Positions 3,323 to 62,640 of a stretch of DNA of 64,000 nt are shown here, piece by piece. Source of the stretch: Aphrocallistes beatrix. Lineage: Eukaryota; Porifera; Hexactinellida; Sceptrulophora; Aphrocallistidae. Positions within the stretch are counted from its first letter, which is position 1; every line of letters begins with the position of its first letter. The stretch lies in NCBI GenBank assembly GCA_963281255.1, contig OY725504.1, positions 3,038,001 to 3,102,000 of the forward strand, in the 5' to 3' direction. The notes beneath the pieces are model-generated. The model saw only the letters and a list, made by a program, of their open reading frames with translations, had not been told where the DNA came from and ran no database searches. The translations under genes and the position numbers were made by a program.

Positions 3323-3510
3323 CAGTCGACTCCACTTAATAGGGCCACATCGGTCAGAGGACATTTTGCCCCGATTAAGCGGAGAACCCTATTAACCGAA
3401 AATATTTTGTATTAGCTTCTATGTGTGAGAGCTATTCTGGTCCTGCCAAAAGTGGCCCGATTAAGCGGCTGACCCGATTAAACAGTGGCCCTATTAAGCG
3501 GAGTCAACTG
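3323..3510. mobile_element. 188-bp TA-flanked MITE, copy 1
   Basis: Flanked by TA at 3321-3322 and 3511-3512. Ends are inverted repeats (CAGTCGACTCCACTTAAT on the left, ATTAAGCGGAGTCAACTG on the right). Nearly identical full copies lie at 4809-4995 and 54836-55023. Non-coding; probably mobilised by a Tc1/mariner/pogo-class transposase given the TA target. Confidence 0.9.
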
Positions 3511-4808: not shown

Positions 4809-4995
4809 CAGTCGACTCCCTTAATAGGGTCACTGGTTAATCGGGTCAACCGCTTAATCGGGCCACTTTTGGCAGGACCGGAATAGCTCTCACACATGGA
4901 AGCTAATACAAAACATTTTCGGTTAATAGGGTTCTCCGCTTAATCGGGGTAATATGTCCTCTGACCGATGTGGCCCTATTAAGCGGAGTCGACTG
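4809..4995. mobile_element. 187-bp TA-flanked MITE, copy 2
   Basis: Same family as 3323-3510 but in the opposite orientation. Flanked by TA at 4807-4808 and 4996-4997. Confidence 0.9.
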
Positions 4996-11829: not shown

Positions 11830-14800
11830 ATGAAGAAGCAAAAAGGCCGTTTTGATGCTGTCAGAAGGTTCGTCAGTAAAACTCCTCAAGAAGACAATCC
11901 GTCATTCATCAGCCCTGACCTCAAAGGTCCTGCTCTCATTAGAAAAAAAGAAAAAGAGAAAGCAATACTTGCACTTCCTTCTAAGTATCGCCCTTATAAA
12001 TCAGCCTCCCCTCCCAGTTCTCCTAAATCATCCCCTTTTTCCTTTTCTTCTAAGCCAGCACCCCCTCCCATTTCTTCTAAGCCAGCACCCCCTCCCATTT
12101 GGTCTAAACCTAAGTCAAAAAAACCCAGCTCAAACAGAACACCCAAGAAGACCAAAGAACACTACGAAGATTACAACTACGATGATTACGTTCATGGATA
12201 CAAAGGTAAGGGAGTAAAGGAAAGTGTGGAATCTGAAATTTTGGAGGCATCAACAAAAGAGACATATCTAACTGAATCTGTTAGCGATGGTGAACCTTTA
12301 ACCAATGAAGATTTTGTCGTCCCAAACAAAGCAACTCGAATGATGATGAAACAGATCTCCATTGATAATAATGAATTGTATAAAGAGAAAGAAACTCCAA
12401 ATAGACGGTCTACGTTACTAAAGAAGAAAACTGCGTTTAATATGCTTGAACGTACACCTCCTCAGCTCAACATCCCCTACAACCTGGACCTGGGAGAGAA
12501 CAAACCTGACAGGGGGCTAGCCTATGTTGTCTCATTCCAGTGGTTAGGAGTAGACGCAGAGAGAGAACTGAGAATTTTGATAGGAGTTCTTCGCACCCTC
12601 AAATTCAAGGTAGAGACCGCAATGTCCATTACGAAGCAGTGTTTCCTAGACATGAAGAACAACTGGGTGGAACAACTCGTACACAATAAATACTCTTCAT
12701 TCCTTGTCATTATTATCGGCTCCAGCGACTCAGAGCAGAATTTCATGGCCATTGATAACACCATGGTGTCTCGAGATGAGGTACTGCATGAGCTAGATGC
12801 TAACATCCCTCATGCTATCCCAAAACTTTTCATCTTCAACTCCCTCGTTCCTACCCACCTAGGCACCGTCTCAACCATCCCAAAGAACACGTTATACATT
12901 CACACCTTCCTGGATGTGCGTGTTACCGGGGTGAAAGAGAGGTTGGGGCACCCTCTTCTAGCCAGTCTGCAGGAGATTCTTCGTACGAAAGGGTGTAAGG
13001 AAGAACTTCAGGAAATGATCCGTCGAGCTAAACACACCTGTCTCTCTACCTTCACTAATTACAAAGCTATCAGCATACGCCAACAGTCTACCCTGATTCG
13101 ACCTTTATTCCTGATTCCAGCGGAAGTGAAGAAGGAGAGTAGCAGTGCGCTCGCGTGTTACTACTCAGTAGAACAAGCTTACCCAGTTCGTAGCGTGGAG
13201 GCGCATGGACTCGCGGTGATCGGTATTATTGAAGATATCGGCTGGACGCAAGCTGCAAAATTCCAGAAATCAACACGCTCCACCTACAACAATCTTAAAA
13301 CAGGTCTTGAGATGTTAAATCTTAAAGTGCATACACTCGAGTTACCAAGCAAAATGGACTACAAAAATAAACTCTTGAAAACTGTCAGGCAGAAACAAAC
13401 AGAATCAGATGTGATATTTATAATTATTATGGGCACTTGTGTGAATGAGAAGCATTTTAAATTCCGTGTGAATCCTGAAAGCATTCTGATGGTAGCAGAG
13501 ATAATAGAAGATCTTCAAAACGTTGCTCCAGACAGGCCGAAGCTCTTGTTCATCAGTCAACTCCTCCACTTGGATTCTAGGATGAAAAGCGGAGACATGA
13601 CTAAAGCGAACAAAATGCAGGACGAAAAGGTGCCATACATTCACAATTCATTCATTTTACACGCCAAGAATAAGTCAACAAACTCGATCGAAGGAACCTT
13701 TTTAGGCTCATTTACCGACGTGATTCAGTCCAAATTCCGCAAGTTAGAGTTCACTAAGGTGATCGCGAACATGCGCTTAGTAGCAGCAGAGAAAAACCTT
13801 CTTCCTCACTTCTTGGAGCTGAACAACCTAGAAAGTCCGTTGTATATGCTACCGGAAGAGCTCAAGATATCGGCTGAGCTCTTGTCCCGGGGGGAAGAAT
13901 TCGCTGGATTGTACCAAGAGGCATTAGACGATGGTCTGGAGTTGCTGCGCTTCTACAGACTGATGGTGGTTGGACCAGAGGGGGTGGGAAAGACTTCGTT
14001 GCTGCGAGCTCTAACTGGGAAACCCTTCAAAACGAATCAGGCCAGCACTCCTTTTATAGACAAGTTCGACGTACAAATCCATAAAATCAATAAGAACTGG
14101 GAACAGAATGAAGATCTAAATGCGTACGCGGATCGCTTGCTCGATACGAAAGAGCAAATGGCAGTGAATTACGTCGTTGGTAAGTTGAAGGAGAATAAAC
14201 GGAAGGAATCTAACAGTGATCTCTTCGGACAAGATGTGTGTCCATTGGACTTTGTCGAGTTCTGCTTAGAGGACCAATGCGAAGATGATGATGATAAAAC
14301 TCCGAATGTAGCGGACCCTAAACCGACTGAGAAAGTTAGCGAGGCGAGTGCTACGTCACTGTGGAGCCAGAAAGACCCTGGGATCACGAAGCTAGAAGAG
14401 GCAGCAGATGATACGGGACTAAATTCTAGTTTTACTGAGCTGACTGAACTAACTGAAAACAGGGAGAGTAAAATTGAGGAGAAAGAAGCTAATATTGAAT
14501 CAAATATTATCTCAAAAGAAGTTCCTATCCCCCCTCCTCCTCTTCCTTCTAACCCCAATCTAGATTTCTTGAGTTCCGGAAATTCGATGGAGTTAACGCC
14601 AATAGTTGGACCTGAGAATAAAGAGTTTGAAAAAAACAATGTTTTTCTCGAGGCAAAGATCCCTGTATCTATCCCCGATCCCCCACCAGACCTTGACTCG
14701 AATAGGTTTGTTACTAATAGGTTAAGTATCCCTGACCCACCCCCTGAGATCCCCTCAACTTTTCAGCAGACCTATATCCCCAGTAAATCAGAAGATCCGT

Positions 14801-17703
14801 CAGATGACGTAGTGATGCAAGAGAGACTTGATTTGAAGGAGAATCTAATCGATATCCCGATCAATAAGATATTCTCAACTCTTAATGAGAATGAGGAATC
14901 TCGTAAAGTTGAGCACCCAGACTTTCTAACTGCTTGGGATTTTGCTGGTCAGAATTACCTCTACTGTTTTCACTCTCTTTTTCTGTCCCCACGTGCCATC
15001 TATCTCCTCCTCATCGACCTTGCAGTTGAGGACTTGAATGAACCCATCAACATCCGAGAGGAGAGAAAGGACAGATTGTCACAACGCTCTATTTCCGGTG
15101 TACCTAAGACCTATTTGGAAGCAGTTGAGTTTTGGTTGAATGCGATATACTCTGTAGCCCGAATGCCTCTCTCAGAACATTACTCGCGACATTCTAAAAT
15201 TGTATTCGTATTTTCACGAGCTGACAAATGTGTTGATCCCGTCGCGAGAGCAACTAAACACTTCGAAACTATTCAAGACTATATGATAGGGAGGAGCAAT
15301 GCCTTCTCTTTAGTACATCTTAATATCAATGAACCCATAGTGCTGAGTTGTAAGCCAGGTAGTCCCTATCTTAAAAACGTCGCAAAGATTAAGGATTTAC
15401 TCGAAGAAATATCAGACACTGTCGCTTTCAGACAGGAGATTCCAATTCGCTGGCTAGAACTCGCCCGCTCAATCCTACACGAAGTGAGTCCCTTTATTAG
15501 CCATCGGAGACTTGAGTTGTTGTGTGAGAAACACGGATGCACAAAAGACTTCGAACCGCTGATCTCTCTCTTCCACGACATCGGGTTCTTTTTCTATCAG
15601 AAAGGAATTGTGATTCGAGATATCCAAACTTTTCTTAACATCATTTATCACGTGATCTCCCCACAGTACGGCGACAAGATATTAGCTAAAGCAAAAGAGT
15701 ATGACAAGGCCTTTTTAAAGCAGGATCTTCTCGATTGCCAAAACGCCGGTCGTATTACTAGCAAGCTCCTCAATCAAATTCTTCTGCTAGATGACGATAT
15801 ATCGCATGTACGCGAGGAGGTTATTCAGTTGTTACTCACGTATGGAGTTATCATAGATTCCCAAGCTGAAGTGAAACATCCTTTCTACTACGTTCCATAC
15901 CTCATGACTGGTAACCTGGGAGAATTACAAGCTCTGGATGAAGATATAAATACTGATTCAAGGGTTTCTGTTGATGCAAGGTCAAGTCAGACCTATTACC
16001 TTTACTTCCCAGACGGGTTTATTCCTGCGGCCGTGTATTTCAGTTTACTAAGCCAGTGTTTGAAGTTCAACAAGTTGAAAGGACAGCCTCAGCCATTACT
16101 CGGGTTCGACTGTGCACGTTTCCAGTTATCCCATGACCACTCGTTCATCCTCGATTTCTGCTCCAACAAGTCGTATATTCGTATTCTATTCAACAGCAGC
16201 CTAACCCATTCTTACCACCTGACAGAACGTCTCAACTTCCTGCACTTCATTCAGACACACGTTTCAGAGATACAAGGAAACATCATCCCCTGTGGAAACG
16301 CGGCTAAAATCGCAGTTGAGTGTAGATGTTGTGAGCTTTACAAGTCAACCAAACTCATTCAGCCCTGTGTGTTCCTAGACCAACTTCTCTCCACTGCTAT
16401 TGGCTACAGAACCTCATGGTGCCACACCTCGCAGAAGTACGAGGAATGGAATCACCTTTTCATTGACAATGATTTCTACTACGAGATGCTACAGAGAGAG
16501 TTTGATAGCGATGATTTGAGTCGGTTTATTTTTGAGAATTTGAATGTGTTTGAAGAGCATATAAACATTATGACTCTGTCAAGGCAGCTGTACTTTGCTG
16601 GTCTTTTTACCGCGAATGACCTCTCTATGCTCTTGTCAAAAGATAAGAATGAGTCTATGACGGCAGAGAGCATTCTCGCTCAGCTGCTACACCAGTCGAA
16701 TAACTGGGCTTTCAGATTTTATCTGTGCTTACAGAGAGAGACTACTCACTCGGGGCATCTGTTCCTTGTCCAGTTTATCGATGCCTTTCTCTTCAAGAAG
16801 CGAGCTGAACAGCGGACGCTTTCTGTTGATAGTACCTCAGAAGAAAAACGCAAGCGATTCGCTGATTTGGGTTCCAGTTTAATGCCATCTGATTTCGAAG
16901 ATGATTTCGACCGTTACAAAATGAATTCGAATCCGCATGGTGTTGCGATGATTATCAACGTAGAGAAATTCCAAGACGATCCTGCCATGACTCGGAGAGG
17001 TTCACATCATGATTTTATCAAGCTGAGAGAGACCTTTGAAGAACTTCAGTATGTGGTGTTAGGATTCGAGGATCTGACACGGAAGCAGTTTAAGAAGCAG
17101 TTGATTAACGTGCGTAAGATGGACCATGCCAAATACGATTCTTTCATCTGCGTTATTATGTCACATGGAGACGAGAGTGATAATGTTGTTACACATGATA
17201 AGCAGAAAATCAGCAAAGAAGAAATAATCAACGAATTTAGTCCTGACTATTGTCCAGGATTGACTAAGAAGCCGAAACTTTTCATTTTCCAAGCATGTAG
17301 AGGGTCGAAAAACGAAGGATTTACAGCTGCTCTCCCAGACATTGATGAGGTTCATTCGGAGCAGTTGGGAGGATTTGAAGGGAACACTGTCACAGATGAA
17401 CTATACTTGAATCCAAGTATTCAAGCTTCCATACAAAAACCTTATGAAAAATCTATCACAGTTCATCACCTGAGTGATACATTCATTGGCAATTCAACTG
17501 TACATAATTACGTCTCATATCGCGACCCTTCAAAAGGATCTATGTTCATCCAATCTTTCTGTAAAGTTGTACAGTACACACGTTATGAAGAGTTCCAGCA
17601 CATCATGAATGAAGTGCGCAGGCGCGTGTCAATGCTGTCGAAAAAGTATGTTCAGTGTACTGAAGATATTAACCACCTCACCGCCAAGCTGTATTTCTTC
17701 TAG
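11830..17703 (+). CDS. Caspase / Roc-COR GTPase fusion with two degenerate caspase-like folds
   Basis: 1957 residues in one exon, ATG at 11830. Order: disordered basic/proline-rich head (1-210, with SSKPAPPPI repeated); degenerate caspase-like fold A (about 225-400); fold B (about 455-660); Roc GTPase (P-loop GPEGVGKTS 715-723, G3 DFAGQ 1037-1041, G4 SRADK 1129-1133); COR-like region (about 1190-1670); and a true caspase domain (1698-1957). The caspase has the catalytic His in SHGD (His1779), Cys in QACRG (Cys1823), and substrate-pocket arginines in TRRGS and VSYRD. In folds A and B the SHG and QACRG positions read GSS/NSLVP and GTC/SQLLH, so both are predicted dead. The Roc domain has a ~300-residue acidic, PPP-rich insertion between P-loop and G3. 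Roco proteins are dimeric GTP switches and caspases are Asp-specific proteases activated by proximity. I infer a GTP-controlled death or immune protease in the cytosol. I know no standard family with this order. Confidence 0.9.
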   Translation: MKKQKGRFDAVRRFVSKTPQEDNPSFISPDLKGPALIRKKEKEKAILALPSKYRPYKSASPPSSPKSSPFSFSSKPAPPPISSKPAPPPIWSKPKSKKPSSNRTPKKTKEHYEDYNYDDYVHGYKGKGVKESVESEILEASTKETYLTESVSDGEPLTNEDFVVPNKATRMMMKQISIDNNELYKEKETPNRRSTLLKKKTAFNMLERTPPQLNIPYNLDLGENKPDRGLAYVVSFQWLGVDAERELRILIGVLRTLKFKVETAMSITKQCFLDMKNNWVEQLVHNKYSSFLVIIIGSSDSEQNFMAIDNTMVSRDEVLHELDANIPHAIPKLFIFNSLVPTHLGTVSTIPKNTLYIHTFLDVRVTGVKERLGHPLLASLQEILRTKGCKEELQEMIRRAKHTCLSTFTNYKAISIRQQSTLIRPLFLIPAEVKKESSSALACYYSVEQAYPVRSVEAHGLAVIGIIEDIGWTQAAKFQKSTRSTYNNLKTGLEMLNLKVHTLELPSKMDYKNKLLKTVRQKQTESDVIFIIIMGTCVNEKHFKFRVNPESILMVAEIIEDLQNVAPDRPKLLFISQLLHLDSRMKSGDMTKANKMQDEKVPYIHNSFILHAKNKSTNSIEGTFLGSFTDVIQSKFRKLEFTKVIANMRLVAAEKNLLPHFLELNNLESPLYMLPEELKISAELLSRGEEFAGLYQEALDDGLELLRFYRLMVVGPEGVGKTSLLRALTGKPFKTNQASTPFIDKFDVQIHKINKNWEQNEDLNAYADRLLDTKEQMAVNYVVGKLKENKRKESNSDLFGQDVCPLDFVEFCLEDQCEDDDDKTPNVADPKPTEKVSEASATSLWSQKDPGITKLEEAADDTGLNSSFTELTELTENRESKIEEKEANIESNIISKEVPIPPPPLPSNPNLDFLSSGNSMELTPIVGPENKEFEKNNVFLEAKIPVSIPDPPPDLDSNRFVTNRLSIPDPPPEIPSTFQQTYIPSKSEDPSDDVVMQERLDLKENLIDIPINKIFSTLNENEESRKVEHPDFLTAWDFAGQNYLYCFHSLFLSPRAIYLLLIDLAVEDLNEPINIREERKDRLSQRSISGVPKTYLEAVEFWLNAIYSVARMPLSEHYSRHSKIVFVFSRADKCVDPVARATKHFETIQDYMIGRSNAFSLVHLNINEPIVLSCKPGSPYLKNVAKIKDLLEEISDTVAFRQEIPIRWLELARSILHEVSPFISHRRLELLCEKHGCTKDFEPLISLFHDIGFFFYQKGIVIRDIQTFLNIIYHVISPQYGDKILAKAKEYDKAFLKQDLLDCQNAGRITSKLLNQILLLDDDISHVREEVIQLLLTYGVIIDSQAEVKHPFYYVPYLMTGNLGELQALDEDINTDSRVSVDARSSQTYYLYFPDGFIPAAVYFSLLSQCLKFNKLKGQPQPLLGFDCARFQLSHDHSFILDFCSNKSYIRILFNSSLTHSYHLTERLNFLHFIQTHVSEIQGNIIPCGNAAKIAVECRCCELYKSTKLIQPCVFLDQLLSTAIGYRTSWCHTSQKYEEWNHLFIDNDFYYEMLQREFDSDDLSRFIFENLNVFEEHINIMTLSRQLYFAGLFTANDLSMLLSKDKNESMTAESILAQLLHQSNNWAFRFYLCLQRETTHSGHLFLVQFIDAFLFKKRAEQRTLSVDSTSEEKRKRFADLGSSLMPSDFEDDFDRYKMNSNPHGVAMIINVEKFQDDPAMTRRGSHHDFIKLRETFEELQYVVLGFEDLTRKQFKKQLINVRKMDHAKYDSFICVIMSHGDESDNVVTHDKQKISKEEIINEFSPDYCPGLTKKPKLFIFQACRGSKNEGFTAALPDIDEVHSEQLGGFEGNTVTDELYLNPSIQASIQKPYEKSITVHHLSDTFIGNSTVHNYVSYRDPSKGSMFIQSFCKVVQYTRYEEFQHIMNEVRRRVSMLSKKYVQCTEDINHLTAKLYFF

Positions 17704-17723: not shown

Positions 17724-17729
17724 AATAAA
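17724..17729 (+). promoter_or_regulatory. Polyadenylation signal AATAAA
   Basis: A canonical AATAAA lies 21 bases after the stop codon of the caspase/Roc-COR gene and is the likely 3'-end signal. Confidence 0.6.
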
Positions 17730-24036: not shown

Positions 24037-24420
24037 GTTATAACTCCAGTTATAACACCAGTTATAACTCCAGTTATAACACCTGTTATAACACCAGATA
24101 TAACTCCAGTTATAACACCAGTTATAACTCCAGTTATAACTCCAGTTATAACACCAGTTATAACACCAGATATAACTCCAGTTATAACACCAGTTATAAC
24201 TCCAGTTATAACACCAGTTATAACTCCAGTTATAACACCAGTTATAACTCCAGTTATAACTCCAGTTATAACACCAGTTATAACACCAGTTATAACTCCA
24301 GTTATAGCACCAGTTCTAACTCCAGTTCTAACTCCAGGTATAACTCCAGTTATAACTCCAGTTATAACTCCAGTTATAGCACCAGTTATAACTCCAGTTA
24401 TAACTCTTGTTATAACACCA
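24037..24420. repeat. 12-bp minisatellite with palindromic core GTTATAAC
   Basis: About 32 tandem 12-bp units alternate GTTATAACTCCA and GTTATAACACCA, with a few point variants (GTTATAGC, GTTCTAAC, GATATAAC). Since 12 is a multiple of three, frames stay open on both strands; these are not genes. Confidence 0.95.
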
Positions 24421-24738
24421 TTATCAAAGCCGTAACGAGAAATGATCGCCCTCTGGTTAAGGAGCAAAAACTGCGCCCTTACGATGTATTTACTCTTTGG
24501 GGCATTGGAATGAGATTACAATATTTGCATTCCTTAATTAACTGTATGCACGTACTCATATGCTATGAATCCTATGCTATGATTTTTCATCAATATATTA
24601 CTAAGTTGTTGATATCCTGAATTGTATATGTAATCTGAAGTACTCATAATATATATTGTGAAAGAAGTTTGTTGAAGTAGTCTCTTCCGATTTGAGGACG
24701 GTTTTTAGACTTTTCTTTTATATTTCTTCTATTTTCAG

Positions 24739-26750: not shown

Positions 26751-27953
26751 TCAAAATATTTTAAGACTATTTTTTGACACTACAATAAGTTTGCCACTTT
26801 TCGTCGTTGTGAGTCCAAATGGAGAGCTAAGCTGACCTTCCCCTAATGTGCATAGTAGTTTTCCTTCTTCATTGTAAACTTGGACTAAATTCTTATCATA
26901 ATTGGAGACAAGAATGTTATTCACTCGATCGAGACAAAAGAAGTAAGCCATAGTTATTGGTTGAGGTTCGACTGAAATGATCGATTTGAGATATTTTCCT
27001 TGCAAAGTCAATAGATGGATACGATAAGGAGAAATATGAGACAGAATTAGCATGTTGTCATCAGTAAATAGAACAGCTTGTGGAGATAGTATTGTTTTAT
27101 GCTGAACAAATCGTTTGAAATTAAGAATATCATCAAGAACGGATATTCTATTATTATCATCTTCTGCTACATAGATGTCACCATCTGGTCCTATAGCTAG
27201 TGACATAGGATCATTAAATTCACCTTTCCCTGAACCTTGTTTCCCTACCTTCCTCATTAAATGATGAGTATTTAGATTAAATTGAAAAATCGCACACTGA
27301 TTCCAGTCTGTTACATAAATACTATCTTTGTGTAGCAATATACCCCATGGCCTAGCTAATTCATTATTTCCAAACTCATTGGTGAACTTTCCAGTTATAG
27401 ATAGAATTCTAACACGTGAATTCAACATATCACAGACATAAATTAATTGAGTTTCTTCATCGAATTCAATGCCTCTTGGTTCATTGAACTCATCCTTTTC
27501 TTTAATTTGCTTCCCTACTGTTAGAATAGGGGCAACCATTTCTGAGTAATTCAGTAACTTATAATCTACTTTGACTAACTCACCCAATGTACTGAGTTTG
27601 TTTTCCAATTCTTTACTCTGCCATTCAAATTTTATGGAGTAGTTAGCAGCCGAGGTATGCAAGTTTCGTATTTTCTCTTCAATTTTGTTTAAAAACTCCT
27701 GTTGCATCTTCTTCAAGTCAATCTCTTTGATTGTCTCAATGTTCCCTTTAGTAGATTTCAGATTTTGTTTTGCCTTATCTCTGTTAAAAAGGAGAGTGTC
27801 GTATTCTTCACGGAATTCAGATAATTGTGTGAGGAGTGTTCGTTTACGTTCTCTCACAACATTAACAATTCGCTCATATCTGTTTTCGATGTCAACAGCT
27901 ATTGCATCAAATGGATGAGGTGGTGGTACATTCTCATAGATTAGAGTGGCCAT
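26751..27953 (-). CDS. TRIM-like NHL protein, paralogue 1 (coiled coil + six-bladed NHL)
   Basis: 400 residues, ATG at 27953. The head (ENVPPPHPFDAIAVDIENR) leads into a coiled coil of about residues 15-110 with VRERKRTLLTQLSEFREEY. A six-blade NHL propeller follows from about 150: EPRGIEFDEETQLIYVCD, RPWGILLHKDSIYVTD, NDPMSLAIGPDGDIYVAED and three less regular blades, ending LIVVSKNSLKIF. The layout equals the C-terminal part of TRIM/LIN-41-like proteins, but no RING or B-box is present, so it is not expected to be a ubiquitin ligase by itself. Two paralogues on the same strand lie at 58693 and 60463. The coil probably dimerises and the propeller binds RNA or protein; both are inferred. Confidence 0.88.
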   Translation of the reverse strand: MATLIYENVPPPHPFDAIAVDIENRYERIVNVVRERKRTLLTQLSEFREEYDTLLFNRDKAKQNLKSTKGNIETIKEIDLKKMQQEFLNKIEEKIRNLHTSAANYSIKFEWQSKELENKLSTLGELVKVDYKLLNYSEMVAPILTVGKQIKEKDEFNEPRGIEFDEETQLIYVCDMLNSRVRILSITGKFTNEFGNNELARPWGILLHKDSIYVTDWNQCAIFQFNLNTHHLMRKVGKQGSGKGEFNDPMSLAIGPDGDIYVAEDDNNRISVLDDILNFKRFVQHKTILSPQAVLFTDDNMLILSHISPYRIHLLTLQGKYLKSIISVEPQPITMAYFFCLDRVNNILVSNYDKNLVQVYNEEGKLLCTLGEGQLSSPFGLTTTKSGKLIVVSKNSLKIF

Positions 27954-31660: not shown

Positions 31661-31779
31661 TAATTGCACATGTAATTACACATGTAATTGCACATGTAAT
31701 TACACATGTAATTACACGTGTAATTACACATGTAATTACACATGTAATTACACATGTAATTACACATGTAATTACACGT
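31661..31779. repeat. 12-bp minisatellite of alternating palindromes (TAATTA/ACATGT)
   Basis: About ten units of CACATGTAATTA. Each unit joins two self-complementary hexamers, so the whole array can fold on itself. Confidence 0.95.
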
Positions 31780-32769: not shown

Positions 32770-33038
32770 CGTGTAGCTACACGTGTAGCTACATATGTAG
32801 CTACACATGTAGCAACATGTGTAGCAACACGTGTAGCAACATGTGTAGCAACACGTGTAGCAACACGTGTAGCAACATGTGTAGCAACATGTGTAGCAAC
32901 ATGTGTAGCAACATGTGTAGCAACATGTGTAGCAACATGTGTAGCAACATGTGTAGCAACACGTGTAGCAACATGTGTAGCAACATGTGTAGCAATACGT
33001 GTAGCAACATGTGTAGCAACACGTGTAGCTACACGTGC
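32770..33038. repeat. 12-bp minisatellite GTGTAGCAACAT/ACACGT
   Basis: About 22 units. The first two and the last contain the palindrome TGTAGCTACA, while the middle ones read GTAGCAACATGT or GTAGCAACACGT. The ancestral unit was probably fully palindromic. Open frames on both strands (repeating CSNM or HVAT) are artefacts. Confidence 0.95.
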
Positions 33039-38257: not shown

Positions 38258-41200
38258 TTAGGCTGTAGTAGTAGAGGTAGCCTGCTTATCGGTTTGAAGG
38301 TGAGAAATTATCTCATGAAGTTTTGTTATTTGTGTATCCATTATTTCTTCACGCTTCGACTTAGATTCTTCGCGGCCTTTTTCAATTAGTTCCTTGAGAT
38401 CTTTTATTTCGCCTTTTATTTGAGCTATTCCTTTCGTCTTTTCCTCCTCCATGCAGATTTGATTTTGCTTCAAGTCCTCAAAAAGCACATTGTTATCCTT
38501 TTCAATTCGTTCAGAGTAGAACTTGAGGTAACCATTCCATTCCTCAATCGGAACAGACACGGTTTCAACCATTATACGCCTGAGAGCTTTACTGAAGAAC
38601 CATTTCAGGATGAAAGCGATGTTGGAATGCTGTTCATATCTTAGTGCTAACTCAGCTTTATAGTCAATAATATCTTTATCACTGTTAACATCTGAGTAGG
38701 TTTGTGAGAGCTGTGCGATGAAGATATTCAAAAGTACGACTATAATTCCGAATGCGAATACCAGGTAGAAGAGGGAGAAGATAACATGAACCTGGTATAT
38801 CTCTAACTCAAAGTTAGAAGGACCGCCTCCAAGTAGGAAGAGAACGCCTGACAGTAGAGGGGTGATGATGGAGTAGACAGAGTCGTAATCACTGCTCAAC
38901 CATAGAGAGGCTGAGCACTGACCTTCAGGAGTTTTGGCTAAACTAATTTGGTTGAATCTTCGTGAAATTAAGTGTGCTCCGCCCGCATACCCGATTAGTA
39001 TTAGGAATATTATCAGCATAAACCTAGGCACGTCTTTCTTAAGGACTTTGAAAATGGTTTCAATGTATATCCCGAGTGTAGGGAATATTTTGGTGTACTT
39101 GAAGAATTTAAAAGTGAAAGAGATGAAAGTGAGTGCAGCTAGCGTCCAATGCATCTGACTAGCTTCTGGAGATCGGATGTAGTAGAGTATCACTCGTGAC
39201 GTGTACAACATGAGGAGAAAAATGACACTAACCAATTCGAGGATGCTGTAAGATGACGTGATATGCTCATATACTGCTCTGAGAAGATGCTTGCAATAAT
39301 TCCGATCAAACTTGTACAGCAAATAATAGGTTTTCTGTGGAAGTTCGATTAATACAGTTAATACGAGGCTGAACAAGTACCCCTCTCTATTCTCGAGTCC
39401 ATAATATTGAACAGTATTGGGATTTCGGTATGCGAGCTTACGCGAGACACTCGGTAAATTCTTCAAATATTCCCATTTCCCGATCACTTCGATCGTCTCA
39501 TTCGACATGTAGAGAAGTGTCACCACAATGATATAAACCTCAAGCAATAAGCGCACGATATCTGAAGGTGACTGATAGTAGAAGAGTGAATCATCACAGT
39601 GATGGGATGCTAAGAGCAAAGCAAACACCATTGGAATGTAGAAAAGTAAGTAGAGCAAAAGCATGAGGGAGTACCACCATTTATACAGCCTGATCTTAGC
39701 GTCGATTGCAAACTTGAGGAGAGGGTGGTATTTGGTGCGGTTGGTACGTGAGGTGTACATCTTATGCCAGAGCGGTGAGAGAAAATAGTTGAAGATGGCG
39801 AAATCGGGATAATCTCCTTCCTCATTCGAGTCCATTATCTTCGTGGACATGACGGCCCTGTTAGCATCACATATGACCATTTTATCTAGGATGTTAATCA
39901 GTGTGCTGTTGTCCTCTTCATCTGCGATTCGATGCACGACATCAGGACAGCACTCGAAGAACTCAGCATCACAAAGCTCCACGATCATGTTCACCGTTTC
40001 TATCTGCCCCTTTCCCCTTGCTAGCGTGATCGGTGAACGTCCTAATACATTACGACCGTTAATTATGATAGAAAATCCGTCCTGGTAATTCAGAGCCAAG
40101 TAGGGAAGAAGAAATCGAATGCAACGCATTGAGGTGGACTTGACCATAATGTGTACCAAGTTGTCTCCATGTAAATCTGTATAGAGGAATGTATCTAGGT
40201 GGAATTTGTACTTTTCCGTGCAAATCATTTGGAAGAATTCCACATAGTCAAGTTCAGCGGCCAACATTCCTGGAGTTAGGCCTGAGTAATCGCAGTCTAG
40301 AAGGGCTTCCAAATTAGGAGATTCCGGGTTTTTGATATCGATACGGTACGCCTCGTCTAGTATGGCTGTCAGCACCTCCAATTCTCTCCTACTGCTGATG
40401 GCATGGTGTAATGCACGCCTCCCATCTCGATCTAAAGCACACAAATCTGCATTCTTGCTTAACAGAAACTTAATTCGTGCTATGCTGCTCTGCCTGGCTG
40501 CATAGTGAATTACGGAACAGTTAGCTGTGGAATATATATCTGTGATCCTGAGTAATCTTTCGTCTAAAATCCTTGTAACGCTTTTCTCACTAATTCGATC
40601 ATTCGCCAATAGGAAGACGTATCCTTTAATATCTGCTCCTTCGTCAATTAGTTTGGTCGCGAACTCGACTTTTTCGGATTTTATCGATACTTCAATCGGG
40701 GTACCTCGTGCACTATTGATGTTAATATCGACACCGTTGCTGATCAGGATTTTTCCAATCTCAAAGTCGTTTTTCTCAGCCGCGATGTGCAATGGACTCA
40801 TATCATCAGTGTCTCGGCTGGTCAGCATTTCGTATCTCCTCGATGAATGCTGGGATTCCACTATTGCCTCAAAAAGCTCTCTTTGCTGATTGAAAACAGA
40901 GAAGTGGATGAGATGGCCACTTCTGTATGGATCGAGAGGTAGCATAACTTCATCATCCCAGAAGTTCAGCATGCAATGTAGGATATCTTTATCTTTAGTT
41001 AGCAAAATTGGCATTTCTTTTTTGTTATTCTTCCGCATGATCTCTTTGATACAGCGTTCCCTCCTGTAGGATAGCCCATAGCCTTTGTCCCTGGCATCTT
41101 TCTGAATAAAGAATAGTATTGTCTTCACATGCGAGAGGAGATCTTTCATGGCTGATAGATGGAGGGGTGTATCCCCACGGAAGTTTCCCAGGGTAAAAGG

Positions 41201-44200
41201 GGCTCCATTGCTCAACAAAATTTCAAGTAACCTTTCGCTTCGATTTGAATTAATCGCCAAATGTAGCGAGGTGTTCCCTTTCAGGTCTTTCTTGTACATT
41301 ACTTTATGCTCCATGTATTGTGTGGCATCATAGGATTTAACGGCTTTTGATAGGGCATTCAATAGCATTAGGTTAGATGGGGTTTCAGGATTTATGACGC
41401 ACGAGTGTATTACGGTATAACCATCACTTGGATGCAAACTTGTGAGGTCAACTCCTGCGTTGATTAATTGAATTGCAGCTGTTGTGTTACATTTCGTTAT
41501 GGCAAGATGTAACGCGGTTAATCCAGCTTTGTTCGTTGCATTCAACATTGCGGTTCTCCTTTTCCGACTCAAGTTTGATTGCATTTTTGCATTCAAGAGG
41601 CAATCGAGACTTTTCGAGGCAGCCTTATCATTTTTTGAGTTTATTATCATCAAATGAAGGATTGTATTTCCATTTCCGTCTTTCTGTGCAAAGTCTGCAC
41701 CGTATTTTATTAGCCTGATAAAGTTGTCCCATTTTTCTTCGATTGTGCATAATTTCAGAGGACTACAATCTAAATTGTCAGTAAAATCTATGATCTTCTT
41801 TCCTAGCAGATCTTCTTTATCCTTTTCATAATTTTCAACTTTTTGCAACAAATATTCAACAACGGGAATCGATGGATTGTAAATTAAATGATGGATAACT
41901 GTTTTTCCTGAATCGTCACGTTCTTCGAAGGGAAATTTGTAGTTTTCACACAAGAATTGCATCATTGACAACGTAGCACACTGACCTGCCAATTCTATGA
42001 GGGTTAAATCTTCGAGTTTATCAAATGGATTTATTTTATTAAGCTCTAGAAGACTTTCCAAAATCTCAGGACAATTTGACTTCAAAACTGATGAGATTAC
42101 AGTCTGTTGAATGCTGTCTTCGAAATCAGTATTTTTGTAGAATTTGACATCATTAAGTTGGGGAAGCGTAGAACAGATCATCTCATCTGAGTTTATTTTA
42201 TACCCGATTATATGTCCATATTGATCACCGTTATCAAAAACTCCAACACGAAGATGTTTATGCTCGGACAGACCATTCATGGCAACTGTTACAACTGAAC
42301 TGTCAGTGTCCTTGGGTAATACGAGTCTAGCTCCTTCACTAACCAGGTATTCAGCTGATTCTCTGTCAGAGAAGGAGATTGAGAGGTGCAATGCAGATAA
42401 ACCGGTTACATTGAGTTTATTTATTAGACTGAGGTAGTCATCCGTTTCTAAACTTGTTTTTATTTGTGGAATAATACTTTCGAGGATCTGTTTGTTATTG
42501 GCTGCATAATGAAGTACACTACGGCCTTGTTTGTCAAAAATTACAAACTCAGGATTGTGTTCCATTATTGCATTAATAGCTTCAAGTTTAGTGGATTCTA
42601 TGGCAAGCATGAGAGGATTTCTCCCTTCTTTATCTGAAGCATTTAAAATTGAAACCGTTCGTCCCAGTTCGTCGAATTGTTCTATCCCAACACCTTGAAT
42701 ATGTGAGAGAATTAGGGAAACATTTTCCAAATCTTTGTGAAATTTAGCTGCATAATGCAGTACCGTCATTCCTTGCTTATCTCTCGAATCGATACAGACA
42801 GAACTAGAGAGTAGTTGCTTCACAGCATGTGTATTCTGTAACTCAATGCTATAGTGTATACCAGACCTTCCCTTCTCGTCTTGTAAGCATAATAAGCGTC
42901 GAGCTCCATGATCACATCTTATTATTGGTTGTTCTCCATATACTTTGAATATTATATCGAAAATAGAGTTGGATTGCGTTTCAATTGCTGAATGTAACAG
43001 AGTTTGTCCGTTATTGTTTGTGAGTGCAAGGTCAATCTGGTAGCTCACAAGGTAAGTAACGATGTCATCATGTTCCAGACTAACTGCAAGATGTAGCGGA
43101 GTATTACCATGACGATCTTTCCTGTAAATGAAATCATTCTCTGCAGTTTTAGAATATTTCTCCTCAAAATTTAATATCTTTTCTACCACAATCATTCTCA
43201 TCGTTTGGTCAAGTTGTACTGCCAAATGGAAAATCGTTTCCCCATCTCCACCAACTGCATATAATTCTGCGTTGTTTTCTAGTAGCAACTCAACTATGTC
43301 AGGTGAACCTCTTAGTGTGGAGAGGTGAATAGGCTTGTGTTTTGCATGATTAGATCCATTAATTAATTGATATTTATCAGAGAGTTCGCTAATATGTTGA
43401 ATAATGGCAGTGATAATATCTTCAGTGGAAAGTTGTATGGCAATGTGCAGAGCTGTGTTTCCCTCTGAATCTTGAATGGACATATCTGGATTATGCTTGA
43501 GTATTCCATTCACATTTTGGATTTGGTTTTTGGTGATGGCTAGATGCAGAGCAGTGTCGCCATTAACATTTTTGTTGTTACAATAATCAGATGCATTCAA
43601 TAGTGAACATTCCAATAATGCCTTGGTGTATCCTACACTCCTTCCATTATTCACAATCAAATGTAAGAGCGTGTCCTCATGATTATCAGTGTAGTGTAAG
43701 TCTGAGTCAAAATTCTCTTCAAGAAGAATTTTGAAAGCTTCAAAATAATCTTTTTGGATAGTAAAATTCAAGAGAGTTCCAGAAAGTTTGTTAAATTCGT
43801 TAGGATGTTGATTCTTTGTTTGATCACATAAATATTTCAAAACTTCTTTGTTTTCATTTTCAGTAGCAAAATGGTGGATTGAATATCCTCTGTCATCTCT
43901 CTCTAAGTAAGAAAATCCATTTCTTTGAGACAGGAATTTCATTATTTCTAAAGATCCATTAGATGCAGCCAAGTGAGACAGTTTAATATTACGTTTGAAC
44001 TGAACTCGGTTGATAACCAATTCGAGAGGCTGGAATGAGTGACATGGAAGTATGAACCTTTTCAAGTCATCTTCAGTAACACTGACTATTTCAGTAACTG
44101 TATCCCCATTCTGTTTCTGAATTAAATATGACTCTTTCAGATTGGGCAAGTCTGAGAGTATCCATGTACTCGATTCCACTAATTCGAATCCGACAAAAAC

Positions 44201-47200
44201 AATAGGAACTGATTCGTCCTTCACTTTCATTTTAAATATGCGCAGAGGTACTTTAGCATGAGAGGAGTTCGTGTTACAAAATGTGATAGTTCCACTACTG
44301 AGATTAGCATTATACTCTAATAATTTCTCAATCGCGTTAACATTCCTAGACTGAATAGCAGAATAGAGAGGAGTGTATGATAGGGAATTCTGAAGGTTCA
44401 ATAATTCTGTTAGTTTTTCAGGACATTGAGTATTAACATGTTTAATTATGGCAGATAGACATTCAGTCGTTTTCGATTCTGCTGCATAATGTAAAGCACT
44501 GTTACCTAGATGATCTTGACAGGTGAGATCTAAAGAAGAATTCTGGAGAAGACATTCTAGAGCTTCAAGTTTCACGTTTACTACAGCATAGTGGAGAGGT
44601 GTTTGTTTATTTGAATCTCTTGAATTTAACAATTGTTCTCCTTTCCGTATAATAGAATTCATCATTTCAGTTTGTTTGCCGTGTTTGTCTTCTATCGTTA
44701 CAGCATAATGCAATAGACTGCTTCCATTTTCTCCTATCCCTTCTACTCCGATATCTGGCTCATTGAGAAATAAATTAATCTTCCCTTCATTCAGTGCATG
44801 GAATATCGGAGATAGTTTGGCATTGTTTGGTCTATTCATCAATTTTTTAGTTTGATCAATTTTGATTTCTAACTCTCTGAGATTGTGAATTATTTGTTTA
44901 AACAACTCTGGGTCTCCATTCTTGATTGCAATATGAAGTATGTTGTCTCCTTCCTTGGTAGTTAGATCATATTTACACGCTTTGATTCCTATTATTTTTT
45001 CATATGCTCCTTTATTTCTCGTTTTTACAGCTAGATGTAAAGGAGAACAACCAGTCTTATCTTGAAAGTTAATATAATCCTCTTTCTCCTCTAAATTGGA
45101 AAACAGGGTCAGTATTCTGTCAAGAAAATAAACATCCGGGTTTGTACATTTCAGAAAAAAATGGAAAATGGTTCCATCTCCCGGAATTCCGATAGTAGCA
45201 CCATAGTTAATCAACAAATCGAAGGAATTCTGCTTATTATCAACTATGGCTAGTTCCAATGCCGATAAACCTTTTTCATTCTTATAATTGATCACTTTTG
45301 CAACTGTATACACATAACTGAGAAACGATTTATCCCACTGCACAACCTGCTGCAATAACAAATCGAAAGTTTCTTGACATGGATTGTAAATCCCCAAGTG
45401 AATTGCCGTGGTAATATTCTCCTTAGATGAAAAATCAAATGCAAAATCCTTACAATTTATGAGGAAATTAAAAACTGCAGAAGTCGCATATTGTGAAGCG
45501 ATATTTGTCAATTGCTTTGCTTTACTTTTCATTGACTGATTTCTCAAATATTTTTCGATTATTTCAGTATTTTGACAAGAAACGATGTTTATTAAAGTGC
45601 GACGTGTATCTTGACATTTTGGAAAATCCTTTTGATATTTTGTTTTACTGAGTTCAGGAATATTTGAGAGTACATAGCCAATAGTCAACTTATACCCTAC
45701 CCAATCCTCAGCGATTAAAAGATCTTTATGAACTTTTGATAATATTGATTTTTGATTATTCTGTGCAGTAATTGTCAGAGTTAGTCCTCTTTTAATCAAT
45801 AGTTCGGCCCCTTTATCAAATTTAAATTGAATTGAAAAATGTAACAGTGAAAGATCGTCTTCTGTTAAATATCCTAGGAAAGTAGGTTCATAATCTAGGA
45901 GAGTTTGGAGAGCTAGCAGATTTTTGTGATGTATCGCGTGTAGAATTGGATGTCGAGGTAAACATTCCAAGAAGGGACTTGACAGTGCCGCTTTTTGTTT
46001 TAATTTCTTGAATAAAAGCTCAAACATCAAATCTCCGCATTGAATCGCATAATTTAGTAGAGTCATGTTAGGAAGATGTTGTTGTTCAGTATTTATTTCT
46101 AGATTAAGAAGCAATTCTAATACATTCGAATTTTTCTTCTCAAAAGCCAAATGTAAAGGAGTAAAATTATCTTTATTACGGGATTTAATAAATTCACTGC
46201 TAAGTTTCATTTCTTTAATTTTTAACAAAATGCTTTTGACTATGTGTAAATCTTCCCGTGAGACTGCGTAGTGGAGAATATTAGAAGTATTTAGTTCATA
46301 TTTGGCTGTAATATCACATTCTAATTGCAAGAGATAATCGACACAATTTACAGCCTTTTTGTTTACAGAGAGTAATAATGGAGTTTGCCCCTTTTTATTA
46401 CGCTTGTTAATTACATTATACACTACATCTTTTTCCTTGCAATCTTCAAAAATTAACTTTTCAAATATCCTGTTAAGAAAGAGATGTCCCCAATCGAGAG
46501 AAAGAGCTAGATGGAAAACATTATTCAGAGAATCTCTATCTTGATAAACTACCATATTAGTAATGGAACTAGGTAGCAATAACTCAAAAGCTTCTGTGTT
46601 ATTCAGTTCTATTGCTAGATAGAGTAAAGTTTCATTTTTTTTTAATAAGTCAGGACAAAACGGGATTTTAATAGATTTGTAATTATAGTCTTCGAGTTGG
46701 ATATTGAAAAAATCTACCAATTTGACACTGTCACGACAGAATTTCATGAGAAAATAAAAGAAATTGTGACTATCTGAATCAACACAGTCAACTTGTCCGC
46801 CAGCTTTAATTAATAATCTTGCAGCATCGAAGTGTTTAAGAGTCATGCTGAGTAAGAGAGGAGTAAGTCCGATGTACTTCTTTGTAATTGAATTTGAGGT
46901 AACACTAGGGTTGGACGGGACAAAGATAGGTTCATTAATGAAGTCAGGATGTTTGTCTTTAGTTATTGACAATATTTCATTAAAATATTCATGTCGGTAG
47001 AAGAAGACAGCTAGATGAAGTATGTTACAACCATGATTCTCAGAAATATCCAGATTGCAATACTTACTATCAATTAAGATTTTGATTCCTTCAACAAATT
47101 CAGTTTCGAAGCAGAGCATTAGGGGAGACTTACCTTGATAATTTTCTTCGTTTATTATGGAGCTTGATAAAGGCTGTTTTAGTAGAAAACAGAGTAACTC

Positions 47201-48516
47201 TATATTTTTCTTTTCAACTGCGATGTGGAATAGTGTGCTGTTAGATCTATTGTTAACGGTAATGAGATTTTCATATTGTTGAAAAACAAACTTTAATGGA
47301 GTAAGCATATTTCTCTTTATCATTAAATCCAAAGGAGTTAATTTGTCCAGATTCTCTGAATTCCACAATTGTAGGAAAAATTTTTCGGGGCAGTATTCAA
47401 GAATATATTTCACATTTTCTGATTTGTCTCCTAAAATAGCTGAATGTAGTATTGTGTCTTTAGCATCATTTATTACAGACCAAATTTTATCAGTTTTAAA
47501 CTTTTCAACTACAAATTCCAGGATTGGAGTAGACCAATGGTGAGCAATGTAGTTAATGACAGTTGAGCCTCCAGGGATTTTGGAATCATATTCAACATAT
47601 GTGGGAAAAAGTTTTTTTGCTATTTGATGACACGGGAATTGAAGCACCTGTAAAATCTGTATAAGTTTTAGAGGTTTAGTGAGTCGGTTAAAGTTGTCGG
47701 TTACTACTAATTGGCATATTGGATTCGTTTCAATTGAACAGCAGAGTCGATATGTTATATTATCCTGTTTGAAATACAATAAACTTACGATTATTCCTTC
47801 GGGGTTACTCTTCAAAGCACCAAAGAATATTTCATCTCCACCTTTCCATGTGAAGGTTCCATTTTTCTCTTTACGCAAGAGAGAAGCTCCTGAATTTATG
47901 AGCTGAGTCAGTATACATGCTTTTGGAATTGATTCCTTTCTTAATGAAGGCAAATTCGAATTCAAGTTGTAAGCTAATGGTACTGCTCCTTTTTTGTTTT
48001 CTTGGCAGATGAGATGTCTGTATTTATCTGATTCACCGACATAACGGATAATGTCGCATGCAACTTGTGGATAGAAGTTCATTATTGTGGTGTAGTGTAT
48101 CATTGTATTTCCATCTTCATCAGTAGTATCCCAGGAAATGCGGTGCAGATTTTTCCCACACAACTCCATAAAAGAAGAGTAATCTTTAGATTTTGAAGTT
48201 AAAACGAACATGAATAATTTTTCAATCGAGATGAATTTCCCAATACACTTAATCCAGTCCATTGATGTAGGAATGGGAATAGATTTCGAAAATGGTTTGA
48301 GAACTTTGGTACATATATCGTCAATTTTCTCAGAAGCATAATATACTATTTCCTTAACGTCGATAAATTTGATTGTAGCATCATCTATATGTATATGTAT
48401 GGAATCATATCGGATAGATTCACAGATGTCTCTTCCCTGTAATCCCACATAGAGAGTTTTATCCGTTTTACAAATAAATAGTTCACCTTCACTCAATATT
48501 TGTTCATGTAAATTCC
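38258..48516 (-). CDS. Giant ankyrin-repeat TRP (TRPA-like) channel, main exon
   Basis: About 3418 codons in one exon. There is no in-frame ATG near its start; the frame opens at a 3' splice site (TTTCTTTTAG before 48516), and a plausible first exon is at 50024-50081. Residues 1-2900 contain about fifty ankyrin-type motifs (TPLHLA/ALHLAI-like). Two non-ankyrin inserts interrupt them, near the GTITFCNTNSS and SSVVTVAMNG segments. From about 2930 come six transmembrane helices (first WYSLMLLLYLLFYIPM, last FGIIVVLLNIFIAQL), with a pore loop FLLGGGPSNFE between S5 and S6. A coiled coil of about 70 residues ends the chain. This is TRPA topology, but TRPA1 has ~17 ankyrins and ~1100 residues, so this protein is about three times longer. 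I infer a plasma-membrane cation channel, perhaps mechanically or chemically gated. Confidence 0.88.
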
Positions 48517-54835: not shown

Positions 54836-55023
54836 CAGTCGACTCCGCTTAATAGGGCCACATCTGTCAGAGGACATTTTGGCCCGATTAAGCGGAGAAC
54901 CCTATTAACCGAAAATATTTTGTATTAGCTTCTAGGTGTGAGAGCTATTCTGGTCCTACCAAAAGTGGCCCGATTAAGCGGCTGACCCGATTAAACAGTG
55001 GCCCTATTAAGCGGAGTCAACTG
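54836..55023. mobile_element. 188-bp TA-flanked MITE, copy 3
   Basis: Flanked by TA (54834-54835 and 55024-55025). Nearly identical to 3323-3510. It sits in the immediate 5' flank of the methyltransferase gene. Confidence 0.92.
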
Positions 55024-58692: not shown

Positions 58693-59952
58693 TCAGAATA
58701 TCTGGAGTCCATGGTCTTGTTTTGACACTACGATGAGTCTACCACTTCTTGTCGCAGTTAGTCCATATGGCCAGTCTAACTGACCATTTCCTATTGTGTG
58801 AAGTAACTCTCCTTCTTCATTGTAAACTTGTACTAAGTTCTTGAATGTAATGCTGACTAGAATGTTATTCGCTCTGTCTAGGCAGAAGAACCAAGTCCAT
58901 GAAGATGATTCAATGGAAATAATAGATTTAAGATATTTTCCTTGTCGAGACAATAAATGGACACGATGGAGAGAATCAAAAGATAGAATTAGCATATTGC
59001 TCTCAGTGAATTGAACAGCTAGAGGAGATAGAATTGTTTTATGCTGAATAAATCGTTTGAAATTAAGACTAACATCAAGAACTGATATTATGTTATTATT
59101 CTCTTCTGCTACATACAGATCACCATCTAGTCCTATAGCTAGTGATCTAGGAGTTCTAAATTCACCTCCACCTGAACCTCTTTTCCCAACTTTCCTTATG
59201 AACTGATGAGTATCTATTTGAAATTGCAAAATAGCATGATCTATGTCTGTTACATAAATACTGTCTTTATGTAGCAATATACCCCATGGCTTAACCAATT
59301 CATTACCTCCAAACTCACTGATGAACTCTCCAGTCATTGATACAATTTTAATACGTGGATCACCCATATCACACACATAAATCAATTGAGTTCCTTCATC
59401 AAATGCAATACCTCTTGGATTATCAAACTCATCTTTCGCTTTCTTCCCTACAGCTACAACAGGGGTAACCATTTCCGAGTAATTCGGTAATTTATAATCC
59501 AATTTGATTAACTCACCCAATGTACTGAGTTTATTCTCCAATTCTCTACTCTCACATTCAAATTGGATGAAATAGTTAGCAGTAGAGATTCGTAATTTTC
59601 GTATTTTGTCTTCAATTTTGCTTAAGAACTCCTGCTGCATTGTCTTCAAGTCATTCTCTTTGATTGTCTCAATAGGCTCTTTAGTATATTTCAACTCTTG
59701 TTCTGTCTTGTCTCTGTTAGAAAGGAGAGTGTCGTATTCTTCACGGAATTCAGATAATTGTGTGAGGAGTGTTCGTTTACGTTCTCTCACAACATTCATA
59801 ATTCGCTCGTATCTGTTTTCAATGTCAAAAGCTATTGCATCAAATGGATGAGGTGGTGGTACATTATCAGGGAGTAGTTCTATTCTGCTATATCGAGTTA
59901 GATCAAGCTTAGAAGACTGAAACGTTGTATAAGTACAAGCTACGATGAGCAT
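58693..59952 (-). CDS. TRIM-like NHL protein, paralogue 2
   Basis: 419 residues from the ATG at 59952. The coiled-coil head (DNVPPPHPFDAIAFDIENR...RTLLTQLSEFREEY) and six NHL blades (DNPRGIAFDEGTQLIYVCD, KPWGILLHKDSIYVTD, RTPRSLAIGLDGDLYVAEE and three others, ending QDHGLQIF) match paralogues 1 and 3. Unlike them, the ancestral start (MATL in the others) is lost: a short deletion turns the equivalent site into SRIELLP. The frame then runs upstream to a new ATG, adding about 30 unrelated residues (MLIVACTYTTFQSSK). Either translation now starts there or the copy is impaired. Tandem with paralogue 3, same strand. Confidence 0.85.
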   Translation of the reverse strand: MLIVACTYTTFQSSKLDLTRYSRIELLPDNVPPPHPFDAIAFDIENRYERIMNVVRERKRTLLTQLSEFREEYDTLLSNRDKTEQELKYTKEPIETIKENDLKTMQQEFLSKIEDKIRKLRISTANYFIQFECESRELENKLSTLGELIKLDYKLPNYSEMVTPVVAVGKKAKDEFDNPRGIAFDEGTQLIYVCDMGDPRIKIVSMTGEFISEFGGNELVKPWGILLHKDSIYVTDIDHAILQFQIDTHQFIRKVGKRGSGGGEFRTPRSLAIGLDGDLYVAEENNNIISVLDVSLNFKRFIQHKTILSPLAVQFTESNMLILSFDSLHRVHLLSRQGKYLKSIISIESSSWTWFFCLDRANNILVSITFKNLVQVYNEEGELLHTIGNGQLDWPYGLTATRSGRLIVVSKQDHGLQIF

Positions 59953-61668: not shown

Positions 61669-62640
61669 TCTATTCTGTTCCAAATATAGTAGACAATTTC
61701 TTACATTGTATTTTATATATTGAAGTTACTGAGACCTAATCAGTTTCGAGTTACATCTTTAAATTGGTTGAGCGCATACTTATCTGGGTTTGTTAGCTAA
61801 TATATTGCTCTCTGAGATATTTCAACCAGACACATGCCTAGTAGTCATAGGAACTAATGACGACCCAATCTGACACACGGTTTGAAATCAATTATCGGAG
61901 CAAGCAATACACACTATCAAAAGGATCGATAAATTTCCAACAAATATCGAAAATGCTGGAATTGACCAAAATTGAGTGAAATAGAAAAAGTCTTAGAATT
62001 AAGTAGAGGTCGCAAGCCGTTTTTGAGTTTAGTTATCACAATTTCAAATATTCTACGAGTAGAATCTAGATTATTTCATTTCATTCCTTCCAGATTCCAA
62101 GGTTGTATTTAATTCGTATTTCTCAGGTGATTACTGATTACTGTAGTACGTAAATTAAATGTTATTTCTTGGTCGGTTAACAAGTCATCATCCCTAGTTA
62201 TTTTGAGAAACATGCTTTCCAGTATAGTTCAGGTAGACGCGGGCTATACGCTTGCTTGCTTTGGGTCGGGCCGAGAATTCAGGCCCGTTGCGACCCCTAG
62301 AATTTATAGTTAGGAGAGTTGCATCTAGCCACCCCTGAAAATATTTTACCCCTCTCTGATTAAACTAGAAGTGTAACTATTAAATATTTTATAGATGAAC
62401 TAAATTGCAACATTAATAATATAATAATAGCAATAAACACAAAGAATTGTAAACTAGGCTAATACAGATTGTAAGTTCTCTATACGACTAAATACTTACA
62501 ATAATTTTACGAAAATAGATATTAGTACTAAAATAGGCGGTAGCATTTGAGAGTAGATGAAAATAATTTACACTATCAATAGCCAATAAACACAGATCTT
62601 CACAAGAAAATAAATATGTGTGTGGATGTGAAGATTCGAA
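61669..62640. other. Intergenic, no gene seen
   Basis: AT-rich; separates the NHL tandem from the fascin exon. No repeat family recognised. Confidence 0.4.

Follow-up and report, generated by a model that had tools for sequence, protein, structure and literature searches.

Roco proteins combine a Roc GTPase domain of the Ras type with a COR domain, and in animals they include LRRK1/LRRK2, DAPK1, and MFHAS1, with kinase, death, or TIR domains as outputs. Apoptosomes, such as Apaf-1/caspase-9 and CED-4/CED-3, consist of two or more chains and use an AAA-type ATPase, a CARD, and a CARD-type caspase. In bacteria, the C-terminal position of the LRR-Roc-COR (AP-GTPase) conflict proteins holds at least 24 domains, caspase included, according to the section of PMC8195603 that deals with them; in animals, amphioxus TNFR-caspase and LRR-caspase fusions are described in passages of PMC2575513, and Aplysia TIR proteins with Roc and COR in passages of PMC9334734. 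Here, we describe a gene in a 64,000-nucleotide stretch of the glass sponge Aphrocallistes beatrix (contig OY725504.1, positions 3,038,001 to 3,102,000; hereafter the window), whose predicted product joins a Roco switch to a caspase within one chain.

The gene is one frame at 11830-17703 of the forward strand, running from ATG to TAG over 1957 amino acids with zero internal stops. Judged by sequence, its chain is built of two dead caspase-like domains, an LRRK2-type GTPase switch, a CARD, and a catalytically intact caspase in one unbroken gene, and the presence of Roc, COR, and caspase is almost certain. An earlier, sequence-only reading of this DNA had proposed a single chain carrying a Roco switch and a caspase with intact catalytic residues. 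This holds, as the parts lie in one frame that is conserved across datasets and within a paralogue family, and each motif it named (P-loop, DFAGQ, SRADK, SHGD, QACRG, TRRGS, and VSYRD) is present. That reading had missed two N-terminal caspase-like domains (~222-690), a CARD (~1560-1665), and a disordered insert (~776-1028). The domains, their order, the intact G-motifs and catalytic residues, and their conservation across datasets are direct observations. The features are as follows, the boundaries of caspase-like domains 1 and 2 being our choice.

11830..17703, plus strand: whole open reading frame, 1957 amino acids (frame listing; homologues of comparable full length)
11830..12492, plus strand: residues 1-221, low-complexity Pro/Ser-rich N-terminal tail, variable in length among rows (sequence, row lengths); its coding part holds a 27-bp tandem repeat at 12044-12107
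12493..13149, plus strand: residues 222-440, caspase-like domain 1 (Pfam C14, profile-profile comparison, model and fold search, residue counts)
13162..13899, plus strand: residues 445-690, caspase-like domain 2 (profile-profile comparison, model and fold search, residue counts)
13945..14154, plus strand: residues 706-775, N-terminal half of the Roc GTPase; the P-loop, GPEGVGKT, spans 715-722 (Pfam Roc, conserved residues)
14155..14913, plus strand: residues 776-1028, long, mostly disordered insert within Roc (low predicted local distance difference test score, pLDDT; row lengths)
14917..15429, plus strand: residues 1030-1200, second half of Roc, WDFAGQ at 1036-1041 and FSRADK at 1128-1133 (Pfam Roc, conserved columns, fold)
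15436..16359, plus strand: residues 1203-1510, COR region
16507..16824, plus strand: residues 1560-1665, CARD-like helical domain immediately N-terminal to the caspase (profile-profile comparison, helices in the model)
16921..17700, plus strand: residues 1698-1957, caspase domain comprising both subunits (large, small), with H1779 and C1823 as catalytic residues (Pfam, PDB match, alignments)
17305..17478, plus strand: residues 1826-1883, inter-subunit linker with (L/V)TDE, a possible self-cleavage site (motif in the alignment)
17724..17729, plus strand: AATAAA, 20 bases past the stop codon, a possible polyadenylation signal (sequence), this hexamer being frequent in AT-rich DNA

The C-terminal domain matches Pfam Peptidase_C14 with an E-value of 2e-54, its best stretch (residues 1704-1955) covering profile positions 2-233 of 233, and the best PDB match of the protein is caspase-3 (E 3.2e-32). 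The motifs TRRGS, SHGD, QACRG, and VSYRD lie at 1721-1725, 1778-1781, 1821-1825, and 1895-1899, and R1722, H1779, and C1823 are invariant in 27 of 27 aligned rows, a count that is partly by construction, as this alignment was limited to rows listing a caspase. In a second alignment of 45 rows, R1722 and Q1821 are kept in 45/45 and R1898 in 42/45 with three gaps, all three being, we presume, Asp-pocket positions; since a Q-A/S-C motif was the entry condition for this alignment, 45/45 at Q1821 and C1823 is also partly by construction. By these sequence marks, the domain is a member of Peptidase C14, with large and small subunits and the catalytic His and Cys, and it is predicted to cut after Asp. 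The (L/V)TDE of the linker, which is found in 6/45 rows (the window protein and its five closest relatives), is a possible site of self-cleavage.

Roc is recognized by Pfam across two stretches (E 8.2e-11), with the P-loop at 715-722, DFAGQ at 1037-1041, and SRADK at 1129-1133. All 45 rows, which represent 40 distinct genes because five repeat a gene under another record, keep G715, G720, K721, T722, and T740, as well as D1132, which serves base recognition, and the disordered insert spans 80 to 373 residues between identical columns among the 27 rows. The P-loop and the DxxGQ and T/S-K/R-x-D motifs make this a Roc G-domain of the Roco type, with COR directly after it. The COR-like region noticed in the sequence-only reading falls below the Pfam COR-A cut-off, and the predicted fold is clearly Roc-COR. 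We infer that the protein binds GTP and forms oligomers. In the Pfam scan of the protein there was no NACHT or LRR match and no NB-ARC match at E<=1, and by fold search its NTPase is Roc; AAA and ABC family matches were set aside, in our judgement, as P-loop cross-matches.

The region between COR and caspase was assigned by profile. Compared profile to profile, it matches in the window's subfamily the corresponding region of a NACHT-bearing class, which is CARD by Pfam, with an E-value of 1.4e-6, while four control regions gave 0.31 or more. Pfam lists CARD in 4/27 homologues (best 0.0011), among them P0010 at 1284-1353, ahead of its caspase at 1402, and above the curated cut-off in four of five scanned proteins of the NACHT and short classes (2.4e-7, 1.2e-7, 8.6e-7, and 7.6e-7), P0043 being the one for which it is not listed. 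A mixed profile of nine segments, which joins four rows of the window's wider class to five NACHT- and short-class rows and does not test the window alone, matches the CARDs of cIAP1 (0.0051), CED-3 (0.017), and Apaf-1 (0.08) in the PDB; its two top rows there are designed proteins, one on template 1cy5, listed there as Apaf-1, and six of its nine segments match Pfam CARD (best 2.3e-9). Residues 1560-1665 are helical in the predicted model, with block-mean pLDDT of 63-95. Foldseek/VIA with the Roc-COR-CARD model listed no CARD chain, but Roc-COR and small GTPases took up all places in its lists. A CARD is very probably present, N-terminal to the caspase as in CARD-type initiator caspases, an assignment that comes by profile, not from the single sequence.

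Ahead of the switch, residues 1-689 match Pfam C14 over two stretches (E 3e-8). Compared by profile with the C-terminal caspase, domain 1 gives 1.9e-8 and domain 2 gives 1.6e-10, and domain 2 matches domain 1 with 2.6e-9. The catalytic His and Cys positions hold Ser and Leu in domain 1 and Thr and Leu in domain 2. Across the 27 rows, His occupies its position in none for domain 1 (three gaps) and in one for domain 2 (P0012; two gaps), and Cys occupies its own in none for either domain (two gaps and one gap, respectively); a Cys within two columns is seen in 3/27 rows for domain 1 and in 0/27 for domain 2. We hold with high confidence that this pair consists of caspase folds lacking the catalytic Cys and His, as in c-FLIP. 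The c-FLIP structure 3h13 is among the fold-search matches of the pair model, but with equal or better matches to other caspases the fold does not point to c-FLIP in particular. The two domains (window 12493-13899) may exchange parts in that predicted model, to which a permuted caspase-2 aligns at 140-390 and ordinary caspases at roughly 3-459.

With residues 690-1640 as query, 30 proteins were returned, including the window's own, and 27 of the 30 list both Roc and C14. Identity to the window protein among the 27 is 66% for five rows, 48% for one, and 28-36% for the other 20. These five homologues, together with the invariance of R1722, H1779, and C1823, indicate that the feature is not a product of chance. 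P0018, P0028, and P0030, which list no caspase, were left out of the 27-row alignment (P0030 has kinase, SH3, Roc, COR-A, death, and TIR domains), and these three, P0033, P0034, P0044, L024, L025, L027, and L028 were dropped from the 45-row alignment, showing no Q-A/S-C or P-loop as searched. The named Roc-caspase proteins number three, all from the glass sponge Oopsacas minuta: P0002 and P0008, deposited as caspase-3, and P0042, which came from a second search. The layout is thus shared by other datasets, one of them (P0002) from a separate genome project.

The A. beatrix genome, with 28 contigs and 100.5 Mb, holds no fewer than 58 matches to C14, and a Roc P-loop and a caspase share one frame in at least eight loci (the window, L017, L018, L019, L020, L021, L022, and L023); these are lower bounds, the locus search having scored 24 of 54 candidates. 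Seven of the 12 genome regions taken have P-loop and caspase in one frame, and L026 has no matching frame; upstream exons are likely for L018, L020, and L021, as the first Met of each frame is found right beside the P-loop, on one side or the other. Two more Roc-caspase loci, C7:524994-528012 and C17:447020-449637, are interrupted by introns or decay. Separately, 21 of the 58 caspase-domain matches cluster within ~50 kb at about 338000-389000 of C17. Some 260 kb away from the window gene, its contig carries L017 (C18:3315000-3323500), a single frame of 1739 residues with NACHT (6.3e-10), Roc, CARD, and caspase, whose predicted domains nearly make it an NLR-like caspase on one chain. P0035 represents this gene under a different record and forms with P0036-P0042 a set in which NACHT, Roc, and caspase are present in all eight and CARD in 7/8. 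Paralogues differ in their N-terminus, which is a dead caspase pair in some and NACHT in others, while some show neither of these in the frame.

A family profile search, which scored the 7992 candidates sharing most words, returned 96 proteins, 31 with C14, all at E 1.7e-251 or better. The other 65 include the close relatives P0018, P0028, P0047, and P0048, the rest coming from corals, molluscs, Dictyostelium, and bacteria, among others. Since this search missed the known members P0031-P0036 and P0038-P0042, found by the second search, the lack of other Roc-caspase proteins among the 96 is weak evidence for a family confined to glass sponges. A tree of 19 fused and 23 stand-alone caspase rows places the fusion as one change with weak support (59/93; 56% of bootstrap trees). 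Given this support, the double entry of one locus (L028 and L057), the choice of stand-alone rows as a part of the 58 matches, and the long branches of several of them, we do not claim a single origin.

Set beside the described systems, the protein belongs with both the Roco proteins and the CARD caspases, as a variant of each. It shares the Roc-COR fold and G-motifs with LRRK1/LRRK2 and other animal Roco proteins but ends in a caspase rather than in kinase, death, or TIR outputs. Like the apoptosomes, it has a nucleotide switch, a CARD, and a CARD-type caspase, but these lie on one chain with a Ras-type GTPase in place of an NB-ARC ATPase. The paralogues that join NACHT, Roc, CARD, and caspase recall NLR inflammasomes, whereas the window protein shows no NACHT or LRR match and has Roc-COR as its platform. 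Its likeness to c-FLIP lies in a caspase fold without catalysis, here two in tandem, fused to a caspase predicted to be active via Roc-COR-CARD. The amphioxus fusions also unite a receptor or sensor and a caspase with an active-site motif in one animal protein, and the words Roc, COR, and GTPase do not occur in the part of PMC2575513 available to us, which mentions no GTPase switch. As far as the cited section tells, the bacterial AP-GTPases likewise can have a caspase as the C-terminal effector of a Roc-COR switch, yet they pair N-terminal LRRs with exchangeable C-terminal domains, while in the window family the animal-type caspase is the common part, a CARD stands ahead of it, and the N-terminus varies.

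The sequence-only reading had also spoken of an undescribed system, which goes too far: bacterial LRR-Roc-COR-caspase proteins and amphioxus caspase fusions are in print, as far as the portions of those papers at hand show, and a 66%-identical homologue was already deposited as O. minuta caspase-3. Among open-licence papers searched by title and abstract start, none dealt with an animal Roc-COR-CARD-caspase chain, and caspase, apopto-, and Roco have zero occurrences in the main-text portions of two glass sponge genome papers (PMC10280926 and PMC10282587) that we searched. The analogy of that reading with a one-piece apoptosome or inflammasome gains from the CARD directly before the caspase and from the NACHT-bearing paralogue class; the self-contained activation it supposed we carry forward only as a proposal.

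In this proposal, the chain would be kept inactive at rest by the N-terminal pair together with the nucleotide state of Roc-COR. A trigger would alter the Roc-COR state, COR and CARD would draw chains together, and the caspase domains tethered to them would dimerise and become active, perhaps cutting themselves in the linker, upon which cell death or an immune response would begin. The order switch-CARD-caspase suggests that chain assembly brings caspases together. c-FLIP can activate a caspase, and the N-terminal pair might do likewise, might place an inactivating hold on the chain, or might act as bait. On balance, a large single-chain triggered switch for cell death or immunity is the probable function, though by a modest measure. 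Several points tell against it. COR-A is weak in the protein (E 6.8e-4 for an excised segment, which scores 20 bits where the Pfam cut-off is 35.3), and Pfam finds no CARD in the window's own segment as a single sequence, which is why the profile route was taken. The residue that follows the linker Asp is Glu, which caspases accept poorly at that position, and self-processing there is uncertain. One bacterial Roco is reported to be mainly a dimer without nucleotide or with GDP and a monomer with GTP, so that GTP binding need not mean assembly. The outcome may also be, for example, differentiation rather than death.

Departures from DFAGQ/DLAGQ in four of the 40 distinct genes (P0016, P0021, P0029, and L022) weigh on the same side and would suit a caspase that is constitutively tethered or scaffolded, with Roc-COR serving localisation or folding rather than switching and no triggered death switch at all. 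Retention of G715, K721, T722, and D1132 in 45/45 rows argues instead for nucleotide binding, and a CARD sits between switch and protease, so we consider such a tethered protease unlikely. Much the same low probability attaches to control residing mainly in the N-terminal pair, with Roc-COR tuning it: the dead caspase fold of c-FLIP pairs with a live caspase, activating or blocking it, but the match of other caspases to this fold as well as or better than c-FLIP speaks against the idea, as do the NACHT and short classes, which keep Roc-COR-caspase without the pair in frame (for the short class, in the frame alone, upstream exons aside).

The bacterial precedent of a caspase among at least 24 C-terminal domains, given in the section of PMC8195603 already cited, raises the thought that transfer or convergence produced an ordinary Roco plus caspase covered by those systems. 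This is very unlikely, since the protease resembles animal caspases (caspase-3, E 3.2e-32), Pfam finds no LRR in the protein, and its CARD and two dead caspase folds are not mentioned in that section; no caspase-listing bacterial Roco was among the 96 profile-search proteins, in a search of limited reach that missed known members. Least probable of all is an artefactual frame, whether from two adjacent genes taken for one, from a join made in assembly, or from decay of a retrocopy. The two interrupted loci would fit decay, but the layout recurs in O. minuta P0002, in further datasets, and at the eight or more one-frame loci, on which ground we reject two genes read as one. Single-exon genes are, moreover, common in glass sponges, PMC10282587 reporting for Aphrocallistes 19,578 genes and, alongside these, 12,409 transcripts of a single exon.

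Elsewhere in the window, a single frame of 3412 residues at 38258-48496 (minus strand) has many ankyrin repeats and an ion-transport domain at its end, and we take it to resemble an ankyrin-type TRP channel. NHL-repeat propellers occur in three frames, all on the minus strand (26751-27953, 58693-59952, and 60463-61683). Tandem arrays of 12 bp lie at 24037-24424 (32 copies), 31661-31777 (10), and 32771-33037 (22), the first and last inside listed frames. Much the same unit of 16-17 bp (GTGACCCGATTAAGCG or its complement) forms short tandem arrays at 3452-3501, 4820-4867, and 54965-55014, perhaps the ends of a mobile element.

Returning to the proposed single-chain switch, its wider reading concerns glass sponges at large. 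A Ras-type Roc-COR GTPase, not an NLR or Apaf-1 ATPase, may be the platform of a one-chain death machine in these animals. Around an unchanging Roc-COR-CARD-caspase core the N-terminus is swapped, with a dead caspase pair, NACHT, or nothing in its place, so that the N-terminus may be the sensor; we regard this whole suggestion as tentative and more doubtful than not. In that case, the dead caspase pair could serve as an integrated decoy with which caspase inhibitors of parasites or viruses are sensed. In the passages of PMC12909245 available to us, the glass sponge Aphrocallistes vastus is reported to have no bona fide NLRs (NACHT plus LRR), and more than 100 NACHT proteins are counted in each of 11 sponges; the Roc-COR-CARD-caspase family might therefore fill the NLR role. 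If the protein works as the proposed switch, sensing, assembly, and cutting, the three stages of caspase activation, would reside in one protein under a GTPase rather than an ATPase, which would tie an LRRK2-type switch directly to cell death and offer a minimal, testable model of proximity activation. The fusion of a dead caspase pair to a live caspase would provide a natural test of pseudo-enzymes as regulators or bait, and the protein would show how caspases could be controlled in a group of animals for which one study reports no bona fide NLRs.
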